A stretch of 64,000 bases of DNA from contig JAHLTZ010000030.1 in assembly GCA_025786725.1 (NCBI GenBank), positions 186,001-250,000 of the forward strand, given 5' to 3'. Shown here piece after piece: positions 27,036 to 53,139 of this stretch. The first letter of the stretch is position 1. Every line of letters starts with the position of its first letter. Source of the DNA: Syncephalis fuscata (Eukaryota; Zoopagomycota; Zoopagomycetes; Zoopagales; Piptocephalidaceae). Made by a program: the position numbers and the translations under genes. A model generated the notes under the pieces. It saw nothing but the letters and a program-made list of their open reading frames with translations, ran no database searches and was not told the origin of the DNA.

Positions 27036-27535
27036 ATTAGCAGTTTTTTTACCATCCATGACTGATATACTTAAAAGATAGCAAAATGACTGCTGGATTC
27101 GAGTTCTCCATGCTTAGCTGTAAGGAATGGCATAAAATATGAAGCAATGATTTTTGCAACAAAAGTAAGTCAAAATGCAATTTATGTGTTATTAGTAACG
27201 AAGAATTAAGCTATATGTATATCTATGACATGAATTGCCGATTTTCATTGATATTTTAACATAATAACTTCCTATTATAATTGCTATACTATTTTAGAAC
27301 GTTTTAAATTTACTTAGATTAAATTTCAAATTTATTATTAAAATTTTAAAATTTTGAAATTTACTTTTTTTTGCTAACAAATAATACGTAAATTGCATTT
27401 TTGACTTACTTTTGTTGCAAAAATCATTGCTTTATATTTTATGCCAATCTGTATAACCAAGCATGGGGAACTCGAATCCAGCAGTCAATTTGCTATCTTT
27501 TAAGTATATCAGTCATGGATGGTAAAAAACTGTTA
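27036..27535. repeat. Long inverted repeat (arms about 165 nt)
   Basis: 27036-27202 is closely the reverse complement of 27370-27535, with a spacer of about 170 nt. Both arms contain the block reading ACTCGAATCCAGCAGTC on one strand or its complement on the other. Transcription would give a large hairpin. Confidence 0.75.
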
Positions 27536-28035
27536 TTTTTGTACATTTATTAGCATACTAGCACAACTATTACATCATTACTCAATGCAGTTGCGTTATA
27601 CTTTGCCAATAGTCGTAGATATGTTATACGTATACTCATGCAAAATATCAAGCGATTTACTTTATTATACGTAAAGTTATACGTAATCTTAACAATGCTT
27701 TTTAAGTAAATTTAGATATCGTAAATCGCATTTTTGGCTAATATTTTTTGCAAAAATCATTGCTCCATTTTTATACCAATCGATACGGCGAAGCATGGAG
27801 GACTCGAATCCAATAGCCATTCTGCTGTATTTTAGTTATACAGCCCATGGTTGGCTAAAAACTGCTATTTTTGTACATTTATTAGCGTATTAGCACTGCC
27901 ATTGCACAGTAACACAATAAAATTACGGTATACTTTGTCAATAGCTACCTATAGAGTATGTGCATATTTGTGCAAAATATCAAGCAATTTGCTTTATTAT
28001 ACGTAAAGTTGTAAATAATCTTAGGAACGCTTTAT
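27370..28035 (+). repeat. Direct tandem repeat of about 330 nt, two copies
   Basis: The segment from about 27390 to 27720 is repeated at about 27725-28035. Conserved blocks include GCAAAAATCATTGCT, ATTTTTGTACATTTATTAGC, GCAAAATATCAAGC and TTATTATACGTAAAGTT. The first copy also forms the right arm of the inverted repeat. The family is unknown, possibly a short non-autonomous element. Confidence 0.65.
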
Positions 28036-29171
28036 TAATTAAATGATCGCTATTACTTTTTAACGCATATCTCATCAAATGTTTACCGCCTGATGGCACT
28101 GAACGCACCCTTTATATACTGCTGCATATTATCATAGCATTAACTCAATGGTTTTGCGTTTAAATTTACAAGCCAACACTCTGTTGGTATTCAAAGTACT
28201 AGAAACGGAAATACGTTATTTTTGCTACAATCATAATTATTATGCATAAGATATTGCATTTTACAATAATTATATGCGTTAAAAATAACAAATAGTGCAA
28301 CATTACAACGTTTATGGCTATTCCGCATTGCTGGCAAAGTGTCCATACAGGCATGCTAATATAAACAAATAAACAGATATTTGCATGATGTTTATAGTTA
28401 GTAGCAAATGAAATATGTATGCACTCAACATGGCTGTAATTGATTATATTTGTCATAAATAAATTGTAATATTATTATTATGGCGTTATCATATGGCGCT
28501 AGTCTTCATATTTGCTAATAATTAACATTTATCATACAGCTTTTTAGTTGTCGAATGCAATAAATTATAAAATTATTGCAATTATAACATAACAAGCATA
28601 ATAATCTATATTATTGTACATACAACAAAGTGGTATTACACAGCTAATTTATATGGATTTAACATACTAACGACAATCCAATTGTCACTGTCGATTATAG
28701 TATTTAATAATTATATTATAGTCTAATTGTTACTATTCTATTTGATATTATTACTTAATTATAATACAGAACAGAGCGCTATAAATAAACAGATAAATAC
28801 AAGCAATAAAATGGTCATTGTCGCATTTTAGCTATATTTTATTCTTGTTTGTTATACAAGAAATAATTATATTTCCCATTTCACAAATGGATATTTTATA
28901 ATTAATAGCCAATAATAATAAACTTTTATTTTCTCAATCAATACATGTCAATTAACTCTACATTATTTATGGCAATAAACGCATTGTTTATTCTCGACTG
29001 TCCTAATCAAATGCTAACTTTGTTAATAGAAATACTAATTAAAAGTCAAATAAGCAAATGAATAATTTATCTATGTACAGACGACTAATTAACGCGTTGC
29101 TATATACATACCATATTAACAAATACATTATATATATTTAACAAATGAGATTATCTAATTTGGTTTATTAA
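28036..29171. other. AT-rich intergenic region
   Basis: About 1.1 kb downstream of the ZNHIT2-like gene. No coding, RNA or repeat signal that I can support. Confidence 0.45.
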
Positions 29172-32060: not shown

Positions 32061-34046
32061 ATGGAAAGCGCTAACAGTGATAGCAATTACACGGCAACAC
32101 AGCCACCGGCACCTGTTATTATTATCGGTGCAGGCCCAAGTGGCTTGCTAGCTGCACTTATATTAACGGAGCTTAATATTCCGGTGGAAATTTATGGTAT
32201 GTATCTACTATTTAGTAAACTGTTTACTGTTAATACTCATAATAAACATACTTTATTAAGACCGTGCATTACAACCAAGTACCTACTGGCGTGCACCTGG
32301 TGTACTTCCACGTACACTAGAAGCATTTGCACGCCTAGGCGTAGTAGACACATTGTTGGAACGTGGTGTGCACATGCAACAAGTAGGCATTTATATTGGT
32401 ACAAAGCGTATACTTGGCAATCGACCGCGAACAGCACGGACAGAGTATCCGTTTGTGCTTTCTGTGCCACAAACAGACACAGAAGCAATACTGCGCGATC
32501 GACTTGAGGCATTGAATGTATCCGTGCAGTGGGGATGGAGTTTTGTTGATTATAGTATGGATCAGGACAACGTTACGGCAACATTACAATCTGTGGTCGA
32601 TATTGATACACTACGACAAACACAAGGCTGTTATATTATCGGCTGCGATGGATCTCAAAGTGCAGTACGTAATGCCATTGGGGCGGGTTTTAGTAAAGAT
32701 GTGCCATCTAAAAAAATGATCGGTGCTGATATACTGATGAAAGGCGATTGGAATACAATGCGGTGAGTTGATAATACTAGCTATCATTGTTAGTTGACTA
32801 TAGCTGATTCATTGGTATTTAAAGTATATACTGGCATCCTAACGGTGCATTTGGTATTGTTCCAGTAGGTAATGATCGTTATCGAGCATTTACCAAACTA
32901 CTACCATCAATGGAAAAAACACCAGAGGCATTTGTTAAAATAATGCAGGAACGGGTTGCACCTACTGAAGTGCCCAATATAAGTACTATGACAGTTGCTG
33001 TGTTTACTGTGTTTGATCAAGTGGCGCAACGATTTCGATCTACCGACGGCCGCGTATTTCTATGCGGAGATGCGGCTCATGTACAGGATCCGGTTGGTGC
33101 TCAAGGTATGAATTCAGCCATTGGTGATGCGGAAAATCTTACTTGGAAACTTGGCTTGGTAATTCGTGGCATGGCACATGAGAATCTATTAATGACGTAC
33201 GAGGATGAGCGCAAACCATTTGTTGTCCAATCTATTAAAAATGCACCGGCGTTTGGCTCATTTGCTCAACGACTTCCAAACTTTCTACAGCGATGGGGAC
33301 TCCGCCTTTTAGGCTTTTTATTCGATTCTTTGCCTCGTAACGTACGGCGTGTCGGCTTTGAGCGATCGGCGCAGTTAAGCTATCGTTATAATACACCAGG
33401 CGCTGCCGTCTTACAAGACACTCAGAAATGGACAGCACCCCGTGGATGGCGTTTGTTTGCACGCCAAGTCGACTTATGCGCACCAGGTGCACGCGCTATT
33501 AATAGTACGCTATTGTCATTGACGAGAAAGCAAGCGAATGAAGCTAGCAATGGACTTGACCTTGATCCATGCATTATAACCGACTTCATCAATACAAAAC
33601 AACGTTTGCACGACTACCAGCGAGAATATATTGGGCAGTTTATTGCACTAGTGTTTATAGATGAACAATTGCTAAATAACGAGTTAATGGATTTACTTGC
33701 AACGTTTGTAAACACTTTGCAAGCACATTTATCGGCAGTTGCGCCACCGGCTATTGTATGCCGTGGAATGTCGGATGTTAAGACCATGCTATCAGCAGCA
33801 ACTCAAATCTATGATCGCTTTAGCCGCGACGAAGTTCGCGTGCTAATTGATCAAGCACAAGCAGAGCAATACGATCGACTTACAATGACACAGCTCTACA
33901 ATGGTGATATCGTTAAGGCGCCGGCCGTCTATCTTATCCGTCCAGATGCTTATATTGCTTGTCGTACGCTTTTATCAACAGCATCCGATCGTTTTGTTGA
34001 ATATTTAACGAATTTTTTGGCGGTAGGATCGATCGGTACAGTTTAA
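32061..34046 (+). CDS. FAD-dependent aromatic monooxygenase (phenol-hydroxylase type), 3 exons
   Basis: Flavoprotein hydroxylase of the PHBH/phenol 2-monooxygenase group, expected to hydroxylate aromatic substrates with NAD(P)H and O2. The Rossmann motif is VIIIGAGPSGLLAALIL, the DG motif is IIGCDGSQSAVRNAIG, and the GD motif is [19 protein letters not shown], so all three FAD-binding elements are intact. A thioredoxin-like C-terminal domain ends with VYLIRPDAYIACR. Exons: 32061-32196, 32261-32762, 32825-34046. It encodes about 620 residues with no frame break. It is a paralogue of the gene at 38455, with the same first-intron position (after EIYG). The substrate is unknown. Confidence 0.93.
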
Positions 34047-38454: not shown

Positions 38455-40683
<2,229 letters not shown>

Positions 40684-48835: not shown

Positions 48836-48850
48836 TATAAATAGCCCACA
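48836..48850 (+). promoter_or_regulatory. TATA box of the microexon gene
   Basis: TATAAATAGCCCACA, 144 bases before the ATG at 48980. It matches the element at 20545 upstream of the paralogous secreted-protein gene in both sequence and spacing. Confidence 0.55.
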
Positions 48851-48979: not shown

Positions 48980-51900
48980 ATGAAGCTTTCCATTGCCGCC
49001 GTTTGCACCATTGCCGTGACTCTTGTGGTCAGTACAGTCATGATGGATGCTAAACCAGCCTTAGTTCGTCGTGGTATGTTACAATATCAATAAATATAAT
49101 AGTATTTGTTCATCAAGAGTATTTTTTAACTAATGACTATAATAGATGGCAAGTAATATCATATATTGGTTATTCACACACTAATTGTATGCTATTCATT
49201 GTGTGTATCACTAACTTAATATTAATAGGTTGTAAGTAGCATTGTATATTAATTGACTGTACATTAATTGTATGTATGCGCTGTGTTTAGACAACTTAAT
49301 ATTAGCGGAATGTAAGTTGTATTGTATATCAATTGATTACCCACTAATTACACGCTATGCACTATGTTTATCAATAACTTAATATCAATAGCTAGTAGGT
49401 TGTATTGCATATCAATAAAACATACACTAATTATGTATCATGAATTGCATCCATCAACAACTTAATATTAGCGGAATGTAAGTTGTATTGTATATTAATT
49501 GAATATTGACTAACTATATATTATCCATTATGTGTATCAACAACTTAATACAATAGGCCGTAAGTGATATCGTATACTGATGACCCATAAATTAATTATA
49601 TATTATGTATTGTGTGTATCAACGACTTAATATCATAGAGGGTAAGTTTTATTGTACATTAACTGACTGCGCTAATTATATACCATGCACCGTATATATC
49701 AACAACTCTACTAATAGAATGTAAGTTATATTGTATATTAATTGGGCATTGGCTAATTGTATATTATGTGTTGTGTATACCAATAACTTAACACTAATAG
49801 GCAGTAAGTAGCATTGTATATTGGTGACTTACAAATTAATTATATACCGTGTATTGCGTACATCAACAACTTGATGGAATAGTTGGTAAGTGGCATTGTA
49901 TATTAACTGACTATGCGCTAATTATATACCACGTATTGTTTGTATGAACAATTTAATACTAATAGATAGTAGGTTGTATTGTATATTAGCTATTTACTTA
50001 CTGATCATATTCATGTACCGTTTGTATCAACTTAACATTGATAGAATGTAAGTAGCATTATATATTAACTGACTACTAGCTAATTGCATATTGTGTATTG
50101 TGTATATCAATAATTTAATATCAATAGGTTGTAAGTTGTATTATATATTGATTGGCTATATACTAAATATGTTATTTACTGATTATACCAATCATTTAAC
50201 ATTAATAGGGAGTAAGTGGTATTGCATATTAATTGACTATATATTAACCATGCTATTTGTTAATCTTACCAATTATTTAATATTAATAGGGGGTAAGTAA
50301 TATTGTATATTAATTGACTATACATTACATACATTTACTGATTGTACCAACTATTTAATATTAATAGAGTGTAGGTTATATTGTATGTTACTTGAACATT
50401 CGCTAATTGTATATGATGTACTGTGTGTATCAACAACTTAATATTAATAGGCGGTAAGTTATATTGTATATTAATTGACTATTGGCTAATTATATACTAT
50501 GCGCCTATATATGAATAACTTAATATGATAGGCAGTAAGTTGTATTGTATATTAATCGACTATACATTAACTATACTATTGATTGATTGCATCGATTGCT
50601 TAATATTAATAGATTGTAAGTGGTATTGTATATTTGCTGCATATACATTAACTATGTTATTTACTAATTATACTAATTATTTAATATTAATAGGGTGTAA
50701 GTAGCATTGTATATCAACCGACTATTCACTAATTATATGCCATGCGCCGCGTATATCAATAAATTAATATGATAGGTGGTAAGTTGTATTGTATGTTAAT
50801 CGACTATACATTAACTATACTATTGATTGATTGTACCGATTGTTTAATATTAATAGATTGTAAGTAGTATTGTATATTAATTGACTATACATTAACTATG
50901 CTATTTACTGATGGTATTAATTATTTAATATTAATAGATAGTAAGTAGTATTGTATATTAGCTAAATATATATTAATTATGCTATTTACTGATTGTACCA
51001 ATCATTTAACATTAATAGTGTGTAAGTGGTATTGCATATTAATTGACTATATATTAACCATGCTATTTGTTAATCTTACCAATTATTTAATATTAATAGG
51101 GGGTAAGTAATATTGTATATTAATTGACTATACATTAGCCATACTATTTACTGATTGTACTAACTATTTAATATTAATAGAGTGTAGGTTATATTGTATG
51201 TTACTTGAACATTCGCTAATTGTATATGATGTACTGTGTGTATCAACAACTTAATATTAATAGGTCGTAAGTAGCATTGTATATTAATTGACTATTGGCT
51301 AATTATATACTATGCGCCGTACATATGAATAACTTAATATGATAGGCAGTAAGTTGTATTGTATATTAATCGACTATACATTAACTATACTATTGATTGA
51401 TTGCATCGATTGCTTAATATTAATAGATTGTAAGTGGTATTGTATATTTGCTGCATATACATTAACTATGTTATTTACTAATTATACTAATTATTTAATA
51501 TTAATAGGGTGTAAGTAGCATTGTATATCAACCGATATTCACTAATTATATGCCATGCGCCGCGTATATCAATAAATTAATATGATAGGTGGTAAGTTGT
51601 ATTGTATGTTAATCGACTATACATTAACTATATTATTGATTGATTGTACCGATTGTTTGATGTCAATAGCTAGTAAGTTGTATTGTATATTAATTGAGTA
51701 TACACTGACTATACTATTGATTGATTGCATCGATTGTTTAATATTAATAGATTGTAAGTGGTATTGTATATTCGCTGCATATACATTAACTATGTTATTT
51801 GATAATGTTATTAACTATTTAATATTAATAGACGGTAAGTTTTGTTGCGTATTAATTGACTATTAACTAATTATACATTGTATATTACGTGTACCAATAA

Positions 51901-52243
51901 ATTAATATAATAGGGGGTAAGTTTTATTGTATATTAACTGACTGTGCTAATTATATACCATGTACTGTGTGTATCAACAACTTAATATTGATAGAAAGTA
52001 AGTGATATTGTATATCAATTGACTATAAACTAACTGCATGCTATTTACTGTGTGTATGAATAACTTGTTATTACTAGCTTGTAAGTTGTATTATATGATA
52101 GTTGACTATTTCCTAATTGTATACAATGTATTATGTGCGCCAAAACCATAATATTAATAGGCAGTAAGTAGCATTGAATATTAACAGCTTTTAAATTAAC
52201 CATACAACATATAATATCTTTATTTATAAACACAGCTTCATAA
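48980..52243 (+). CDS. Cys-rich secreted prepropeptide encoded by 38 single-codon microexons
   Basis: Exon 1 (48980-49073) encodes a signal peptide (MKLSIAAVCTIAVTLVVS) and ends Ala-Leu-Val-Arg-Arg plus one base, a probable Kex2 site. Then come 38 microexons, all 3 nt except two of 6 nt, starting at 49146, 49229, 49306 (6 nt), 49392, 49472 (6 nt), 49557, 49639, 49718, 49801, 49883, 49966, 50045, 50128, 50209, 50290, 50368, 50451, 50532, 50613, 50694, 50776, 50857, 50938, 51019, 51100, 51181, 51264, 51346, 51427, 51508, 51589, 51670, 51751, 51832, 51914, 51995, 52078, 52161. The last coding bases are 52236-52243 (TAA). The 39 introns are 72-80 nt. 33 donors are GTAAGT, four GTAGGT, one GTATGT and one GCAAGT; all acceptors are AG. 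Joined in phase 1 they give 73 residues. The 42-residue mature peptide has eight Cys (C-x2-C-x3-C-x3-C-x3-C-x5-C-x3-C-x6-C), with ECGNWC and ECRNWC as an internal repeat. Function unknown; perhaps an extracellular disulfide-rich effector or antimicrobial. The alternative frame (phase 0) is also open but does not join to exon 1 and has one Cys. Confidence 0.85.
49074..52235 (+). repeat. Tandem array of about 80-nt intron units within the microexon gene
   Basis: Around 39 head-to-tail units. Each runs from a GTAAGT-type donor through a GTATTGTATATTAATTGACTA-like head, truncated here to its common core TATTGTATATTAATTGAC, to a CTTAATATTAATAG-like tail; the units then differ in the following triplet. 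Conservation peaks at both splice sites, whereas the intron middles and the triplets vary. Units from about 50215 onward resemble one another more than the earlier ones do, pointing to recent expansion in the 3' half. Confidence 0.85.
50290..51910 (+). repeat. Segmental duplication of about 810 nt inside the array
   Basis: 50290-50800 is almost identical to 51100-51610, an offset of about 810 nt or ten intron-exon units. Six of seven corresponding microexon triplets match; the exception is at 50451 versus 51264. The duplication accounts for the repeated W-x-x-C-x-N-W-C-like segments of the predicted peptide. Since each unit carries a multiple of three coding bases, the frame is kept. Confidence 0.8.
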
Positions 52244-53139
52244 TTATTCTCAAGACATCAGCATTAGTAGTGCAATCAAACCAATATTCCAATACACTTT
52301 AGGTATATATCCAGAAAAAGCAAGACCGTTCGACAACTACACCGTCTAGTATATCTATATATTAATTTTTGGCCAATGCTTTGGTTTATCCAGTCTTTAA
52401 TCAATGGAATCATTATGTTACCAACATGTTTGCATCTGGCAGCTCATATTCAACTGTGCAAGCCTATAGTAATAAACCTATGGTTCCATCCTAGTTATAT
52501 ACAACCAAATTGCTGCATCTATAATCATGTTCTATTTGCATCCAATAATGACAATTATCAATCAAATAATTAAATTAATAACAAAATGTGTATAATTATA
52601 TCGCCTAAGCTATAGACATAGATTGGTATGGATAGTAGCAAAGCTATCATTATTATATAGCCAAATAATATTATACTGAAATTGGAATAAAAACACTTTC
52701 CTAATAAAACATGGCAATAAAGTATAAAATATTATAAACCAAAATAAATAAACAAATAAAATACGTGAATAGTGATAGCGAGACTATACTGTATGCAAGT
52801 GACCAAGAGCAATAAACAAAATGAATTGAAATCTACAAAAAGAATACAGTTAGCAATAAACTTTTGGCTTTTGTTAATATAGTTTTCTACAATTTACAAT
52901 ATTAATGATATAGATGGACATGTAGTATATGTATACAGGATAGATATGTACAGTACAATAATAATGATAAGTAAATAGTTAATGACCAATGACACTTGCC
53001 ACCCAGTTTCATCTTCAATAAAGCGAATGTTTTGTTTAAATGTGTGACTATTATAGTTATTTAACTGCCAAGTCATAGTAAACAATCAATAGTGCGCTTA
53101 ATATTGTTAAAAAAAGTTATTTTATTTAGTTGCTAAAAT
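52244..53139. other. 3' region of the microexon gene and intergenic DNA
   Basis: AT-rich. If the final exon were read in the alternative phase it would stay open to a TAG near 52346. No independent gene was recognised. Confidence 0.4.

Follow-up and report, generated by a model that had tools for sequence, protein, structure and literature searches.

We analysed a 64,000-nucleotide (nt) stretch of the genome of the fungus Syncephalis fuscata (Zoopagales, Piptocephalidaceae), which we refer to as the window, and found at positions 48980–52243 a gene in which a predicted secreted peptide is encoded almost wholly by exons of one codon each. We regard it as highly likely that this is an intact gene of a secreted-peptide family, that its one-codon exons are spliced in order and that the exon arrays of the family evolve by turnover of whole units. 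The window gene is one member of a large gene family in S. fuscata, and the comparison of its members provides most of the evidence described below.

To define the anatomy of the gene, all of which lies on the plus strand, we read the window sequence directly and modelled its splice sites. Exon 1 (48980–49073) encodes the leader MKLSIAAVCTIAVTLVVSTVMMDAKPALVRR, the start of which is conserved genome-wide, and one further base, so that it ends on codon position 1 (phase 1). It is followed by an array of 39 introns and 38 microexons (49074–52235), the microexons falling within 49146–52163. In the first half, they start at 49146, 49229, 49306 (6 nt), 49392, 49472 (6 nt), 49557, 49639, 49718, 49801, 49883, 49966, 50045, 50128, 50209, 50290, 50368, 50451, 50532 and 50613; in the second half, they start at 50694, 50776, 50857, 50938, 51019, 51100, 51181, 51264, 51346, 51427, 51508, 51589, 51670, 51751, 51832, 51914, 51995, 52078 and 52161. 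Thirty-six of them are 3 nt long, each completing one codon with two bases and opening the following one with its third. The remaining two (49306–49311 and 49472–49477) are 6 nt long and both read CGGAAT; the second, together with GCC in the next unit, encodes the first Glu-Cys of the peptide, and several paralogues likewise obtain Glu-Cys from an exon reading CGGAAT or AGGAAT and the GCN that comes after it. The 38 introns that precede microexons measure 72–80 nt each. The donors are GTAAGT (33), GTAGGT (4) or GCAAGT (1), and 28 of the 38 microexons follow an acceptor ending in AATAG. The final intron, of 72 nt, ends at 52235, and the coding part of the terminal exon (CT TCA TAA, 52236–52243) closes with the stop codon at 52241–52243. 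The pattern AG-N3-G[TC]A[AG]GT occurs 36 times in the 3,264-base gene region, six times elsewhere on the plus strand of the window and once on the entire minus strand; adding the two 6-nt units brings the 36 to 38.

Joining these exons gave a mature part of 42 codons with no stop, eight cysteines and four tryptophans, and a coding total, including the stop, of 94 + 120 + 8 = 222 nt. The initial annotation of this DNA had proposed a signal-peptide exon followed by 38 units of AG, 3 nt (twice 6 nt) and a donor; this description was exact. Its counts of 42 stop-free codons, eight cysteines and four tryptophans, its TAA just past the final acceptor and its 222 coding bases were all reproduced on recounting. 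Upstream, a TATA-box-like element (TATAAATAG, 48836–48844) matches TWTAAAT, which is common to ten of ten aligned upstream regions (the window and nine paralogues). A 3' untranslated region extends to approximately 52490 from 52244 and contains AATAAA at 52471–52476; by eye, it resembles that of the intronless relatives L048 and L050 described below.

We found that the unit is abundant throughout the genome examined (28.95 Mb, 299 contigs). The strict unit AATAG|NNN|GTAAGT occurs 3,183 times, versus 28 times for the reversed pattern; the version with 4 nt between the motifs occurs 54 times, versus 50 in the control; and two consecutive strict units occur 2,214 times, versus none in the control. 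Because the strict pattern recovers 791 of the 1,073 microexons that we modelled, we estimate that the genome contains about 4,300 three-base exons. The start of the leader (its first 30 bases) was found 249 times at three or fewer mismatches and never in the control, and exon 1 with the first units, used as a genome query, gave at least 170 matches (40 of 467 candidates scored). A distant subfamily (L052–L054; G000 C2:519200–523700, minus strand) has the leader MKLSIATVCTLLVAFVASTVMVDAMPAAAHV, which lacks Arg-Arg; some 40 units were matched there (one was read as 2 nt), after an exon 1 in the same phase as in the window gene. By eye, its phase-1 reading looks helical and not rich in cysteine. 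Very similar pairs of arrays lie in opposite orientation on G000 C1 (475–478 kb and 531–534 kb; 575 kb and 610 kb), hinting at inverted duplications. In this genome with thousands of extra splice sites, a search for U1 small nuclear RNA gave one match over the cut-off (G000 C234:263436–263600; 41 of 287 candidates scored).

To examine exon lengths across the family, we sampled 40 loci (L009–L048), of which L048 has no array; the window gene and the other 39 make up the set of 40 array genes. Three further family loci were examined as pieces of 0.8–1.0 kb. Exon chains were modelled in two passes from splice-site scores alone, with score matrices that cover the splice motifs and no exon; their training set was units with 3- or 6-nt exons and a donor pattern, which means that the search itself partly shaped the donor consensus. 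In the strict pass (exons of up to 60 nt), 812 of 816 microexons were multiples of three. The looser pass, which allowed 1–59 nt, yielded 1,073 microexons, comprising 1,016 of 3 nt, 48 of 6 nt and nine of other lengths, and the 1,064 of 3 or 6 nt keep the same phase throughout. Thirty-four of the 40 arrays contain 18–48 microexons and predict products of 50–79 amino acids, including the 31-residue leader. Introns between microexons are uniform (973 of 1,033 measure 73–83 nt) and the splice sites along each array are very alike. A sulfate transporter gene also in the window, whose product is 100% identical to an S. fuscata protein over 98% of the query, has ordinary introns that match these in length or are shorter and whose donors vary more, a comparison that covers three introns, one of them deduced from the translation. 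The start of the terminal exon was recognized in 32 of the 40 genes; its acceptor lies exactly 72 nt past the last donor in 23 of these and 68–73 nt past it in 30, the exceptions being L031 and L036.

If the units are joined in genomic order to make a protein, the codons formed at the junctions of neighbouring microexons should carry a coding signal. Across all 40 genes, only two of 970 such codons are stops, whereas 500 random orderings of the units gave 47.2 stops on average and never fewer than 32. The two stops represent one site in the near-identical pair L015/L044. In the array of this pair, 11 mature residues precede an in-frame stop; it may encode a short peptide or be a decaying copy. 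After omission of four poor rows (L010, L011, L031 and L047, which are short, mis-chained or broken), stops number two in 903 (0.2%), versus 43.9 in 903 (4.9%) in shuffled order, and cysteine is encoded at 157 of these 903 codons, versus 78.8 expected and a shuffle maximum of 98. Joining units that lie 2–12 apart gave 3.5–6.0% stop codons. We also compared registers in 29 genes, with the same four loci left out and each array cut at its first long gap: the register set by exon 1 contains one stop and 88 cysteines in 530 codons, whereas the other two contain three stops and five cysteines, and 50 stops and 24 cysteines. Because neighbour junctions are nearly free of stops and other joinings are not, these data strongly support selection on a product in which all microexons would be joined in genomic order and in the phase of exon 1.

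Intronless relatives also bear on this product. L048 and L050 have the same leader, followed by an uninterrupted frame of 35 and 40 residues that closes with a stop, and a 3' untranslated region like that of the window gene, and their cysteine spacing is similar to that of the array products. In a tree of leader and upstream DNA from 43 of 44 copies (L047 omitted), L048 groups with the window gene (97/90) and is its closest relative among the loci compared, whereas L050 groups less firmly with L043 (82/85). The joined window product aligns to L048 with a score of 60, compared with 14 in each of the other two registers and 48 for the best of 1,000 shuffled orders. Among the 32 products of arrays with 18 or more microexons (L031 and L047 omitted), eight contain the framework C-x2-C-x3-C-x4..20-C-x2..7-C, versus 0.04 expected after shuffling, and it is also found in L048, in L050 and in the annotated protein P0121. 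Together with the junction codons and the exon lengths in 40 genes, these paralogues strongly support the proposal of the initial annotation that the gene consists almost wholly of 3-nt exons.

Intronless members are frequent: of the 313 candidates found in a search with P0121, 150 were scored, and 43 of these match it contiguously past the 31-residue leader, staying in a single frame at least as far as residue 46; four of the 43 contain stops. We considered whether L048 might be a simple retrocopy running from transcription start to poly-A and found this unsupported, since its homology to other copies extends upstream past the TATA box. Either complementary DNA was recombined into a locus already present, or the intronless form is an old one; a search with one three-unit pattern found no parent array. 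The leader may serve several peptide types: in P0127, P0128 and P0129, it is fused to other kinds of mature part, and P0127 has none of the cysteine framework. Neither Pfam nor PDB sequences yielded a significant match to L048 or L050 (best E-values 7.2 and 0.57), and an AlphaFold model of L050, built from a two-row alignment, had a mean predicted local distance difference test (pLDDT) score of 63, from which we drew no conclusion about the fold.

We then compared introns and microexons within and between arrays. In the window gene, introns 13–20 (50212–50856) and 23–30 (51022–51669) are 94–100% identical, and one of the seven inner microexons differs (GCG in the first copy, GTC in the second); judged by this identity, the two stretches of eight introns are a recent block duplication. 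Along an array, intron identity falls from 0.782 at one unit apart to 0.746 at twelve, and it is 0.748 between genes. Recent paralogues such as L018 and L022 are alike at both array ends, and it is whole units that distinguish their interiors. This pair diverges by 1.1% in the upstream flank, 0% in the leader, 6.9% in introns and 31% in microexons. In L009 and L046, flanks and leaders are identical over 895 aligned bases (0% in each), and the arrays differ strongly (20% in introns, 58% in microexons), which suggests that the 5' part was converted or the arrays exchanged. Other pairs depart from this pattern: divergence between L012 and L013 is 5.8% in the upstream flank, 3.3% for introns and 5.9% for microexons, and among the 15 paralogue pairs there are three (L015/L044, L021/L023 and L028/L033) without any microexon change. 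Together, these comparisons show, at the level of genomic sequence, that arrays change by gain, loss and duplication of exon–intron units of about 81 bp, for which a recombination mechanism would be responsible.

Microexons also appear to change faster than their flanking introns. In a set of 141 unit pairs with six or fewer differences in both of these introns, 16 microexons differ, at 29 of 423 bases, and nine of the 16 differ at two or three bases. This is about five times the intron rate (introns average 78 nt); because unit pairs share members and are therefore not independent, and because replaced units inflate the ratio, we take it as support for faster change and not as a measured rate. 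Identical triplets exceed expectation at distance 1 (51 versus 40.1, s.d. 5.9) and distance 4 (57 versus 35.2, s.d. 5.6) and fall below it at distances 5, 8, 9 and 12, so that the excess is a weak sign of duplication.

These data bear on an explanation in which the intronless form is ancestral and an introner-like element inserted itself at nearly every codon. Introner elements are introns gained by insertion, with duplication of the target site. The many contiguous family members found with P0121 (43 of 150) would fit such an origin, as would the identity of about 75% that array introns share even between genes. However, insertions would have had to land exactly 3 nt apart dozens of times, and the arrays point to duplication of units: introns resemble their neighbours more than they do remote introns, a block has been duplicated and paralogues differ by whole units. 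In addition, L048 and L050, the two intronless genes that the tree covers, sit among array genes. We therefore consider intron invasion unlikely.

A slightly less probable alternative, which we doubt for different reasons, is combinatorial splicing, in which any subset of microexons could be skipped in frame and the repertoire of many peptides from each gene would be the function. Such a system has a precedent. The micro-exon genes of schistosomes encode secreted products, with the leader in an ordinary exon and a body of short exons divisible by three, mostly 6–36 nt, that are skipped to make variants. The present genes resemble them in their predicted secretion, in the ordinary exon of the leader and in having a body mostly of symmetric exons (1,064 of 1,073 measure 3 or 6 nt and share a phase, which means that skipping would keep the frame), and the near-identical splice sites along each array would permit skipping. 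They differ in exon size (3 nt), in occurring in a fungus and in a coding signal that favours keeping all exons: codons that skipping would create, between units 2–12 apart, are not kept free of stops and contain them about as often as shuffled units do, which argues that selection sees the full-length product. The mature parts of L048 and L050 also fall in the length range of full array products. Rare skipping of a microexon may occur. We found no homology to the schistosome genes, as neither the joined window product nor the profile of two intronless members matched anything outside S. fuscata, in a word-based search that may miss remote homologues.

It is very improbable that the array is excised as one long intron, from exon 1 to 52236, to leave a very short peptide, the units being decaying satellite or decoys. 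Exon 1 joined directly to the terminal exon is also in frame, but a non-coding array would neither avoid stops only in neighbour joining and in the phase of exon 1 nor spell the cysteine framework of intronless paralogues. Most remote of all is a tandem repeat that encodes nothing and either acquired its splice-like motifs by chance or inherited them; the units of the window gene do form a true tandem repeat with a period of about 81, yet this reading was rejected on the basis of the genome-wide spacing of exactly 3 nt between acceptor- and donor-like motifs (3,183 versus 28, against 54 versus 50 at 4 nt), by the conserved leader and terminal exon and by the junction coding tests.

Several observations weigh against in-order splicing of one-codon exons in intact genes. 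The evidence for both splicing and peptide comes from genomic sequence. Some alignments of array products with intronless ones are no better than chance: those of L043, L026 and L012 with L048, and of L043, L012, the window gene and L026 with L050, were equalled or beaten by 19–133 of 1,000 shuffles, and the kinship of L050 with its tree neighbour L043 has no backing from the mature parts, because 93 of 1,000 shuffles score as well. Of 1,033 introns, 39 measure 155 nt or more and units may have been missed there; 26 of 155–164 nt probably hide an unscored unit, and 12 are at least 484 nt. Seven of the 40 arrays hold modelled exons that are not multiples of three (the nine odd microexons), including L022, L038, L045 and L046, in each of which the joined frame overruns the stop of the terminal exon; the cause may be a unit that was overlooked, an error in the model or genuine damage. 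Two copies look broken, with a changed start codon in L031 and a shifted, stop-containing leader in L047. Both still carry arrays; they are likely pseudogenes and could date array decay.

Protein collections also lend the reading no help. None of 5.8 billion proteins shares three 5-residue words with the joined window product, and a profile of L048 and L050 gave nine matches, all in S. fuscata, in a search that needs shared words and could miss very remote homology. The leader is present in nine annotated S. fuscata proteins, none of them demonstrably encoded by an array (P0121 and P0122 were traced to the genome): P0121 maps to one contiguous stretch, and P0122 appears, by eye, to join exon 1 to sequence past a broken array. 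At its locus, L051 (G000 C256:745000–746000), the leader and first unit are followed by unrelated sequence, and P0122 appears to be a misannotation in which exon 1 is spliced into it. Because the joined window product has no counterpart in the collection searched, annotation appears to miss the array genes.

Elsewhere in the window, two tandem copies of a 332-bp repeat (27387–28044) match at 77%. Open frames with FAD_binding_3 domains lie at 32910–34046 and 39370–40683, a few kilobases apart, and perhaps represent a duplicated monooxygenase. A scan with a bacterial setting found no transfer RNA in the 64-kb window.

Taking these points together, we consider full in-order splicing of the 3-nt exons very probable on the genomic evidence. 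We propose that the leader is encoded by an ordinary first exon and the mature peptide by a one-phase row of 3-nt, occasionally 6-nt, exons, and that the spliceosome would remove every short intron as an intron-defined unit, a mode of splicing that we infer because the introns are short and uniform and their splice sites conserved. Arrays would lengthen, shorten and reshuffle through duplication and loss of units of about 81 bp; because the units share one phase, such events would add, remove or swap whole residues while keeping the frame. The output would be a hypervariable and mostly cysteine-rich set of peptides behind a conserved leader, which, as the leader suggests, are probably secreted and most likely released after Kex2-type cleavage at Arg-Arg. 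S. fuscata is probably mycoparasitic, like other members of its genus; its congener S. pseudoplumigaleata is counted among mycoparasites in one report (PMC6784888). The peptides may act against the host or competing fungi.

We tentatively consider a bolder version, more doubtful than the proposal above, in which these are codon-cassette genes and the intron is a tool for residue-by-residue evolution. Each residue would occupy a unit of its own between introns. Near-identical introns would recombine so that residues are duplicated, deleted and swapped without damage to the frame, and whole triplets would be replaced faster than the introns change. A directed process (short-tract conversion or targeted mutation) may then be at work, beyond selection on point mutations.

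The product and the layout of these genes differ in how far they depart from known systems. Cone-snail peptides and fungal small secreted proteins combine a conserved signal with a variable mature part and partly conserved cysteine spacing, in many copies and with ordinary exons. The S. fuscata family shares the conserved leader and variable mature part, and it has the features of fungal small secreted cysteine-rich proteins, namely a hydrophobic stretch in the leader (by eye), 50–79 residues, 88 cysteines in 530 codons and 249 leader starts; it differs in that an array of codon cassettes encodes the variable part. The Cys-Tyr-Cys motif, which gives the bicycle genes of aphids their name, occurs in none of the 40 joined products. 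Bicycle genes are fast-evolving putative effectors with many unusually small internal exons, almost all starting from codon position 2, according to the accessible part of their description (PMC9168663). That arrangement is shared here, with exon 1 in phase 1 and 1,064 of 1,073 microexons keeping the phase. The two systems belong to different kingdoms, one-codon exons do not feature in that part of the description (PMC9168663), and we found no homology to the bicycle family, the nine profile matches all being from S. fuscata in a word-based search that may miss remote homologues.

Spliceosomes can include exons of 1–3 nt, as the excerpts available to us indicate for a 1-nt exon of Arabidopsis APC11 that intronless relatives support (PMC4674806), for plant microexons of 1–15 nt (PMC8831610) and for a 1-nt exon of Fusarium CYP621A, likewise supported by intronless relatives (PMC12940212). 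Those cases, as the same excerpts present them, are isolated or two adjacent microexons in ordinary genes, whereas here dozens make up the whole mature protein. In the open-licence literature, we found no gene with rows of 3-nt exons among the titles and abstract starts of the matches listed, where absence is not proof, and no article on Syncephalis and exons that concerns one-codon exons by title and abstract start. We therefore call the layout categorically new, and the product a new branch of the known hypervariable secreted peptides.

Recognition of exons only a few bases long is considered difficult for the spliceosome, and those described are, to our knowledge, isolated. S. fuscata has rows of up to 48 three-base exons, and the coding signal indicates that the cell handles them correctly. 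These genes thus offer a natural system in which two splice sites lie three bases apart, dozens of times per transcript, and in which one can ask whether the order of splicing is enforced and why so costly a layout is kept. Together, these data suggest a new route to protein diversification, residue by residue.

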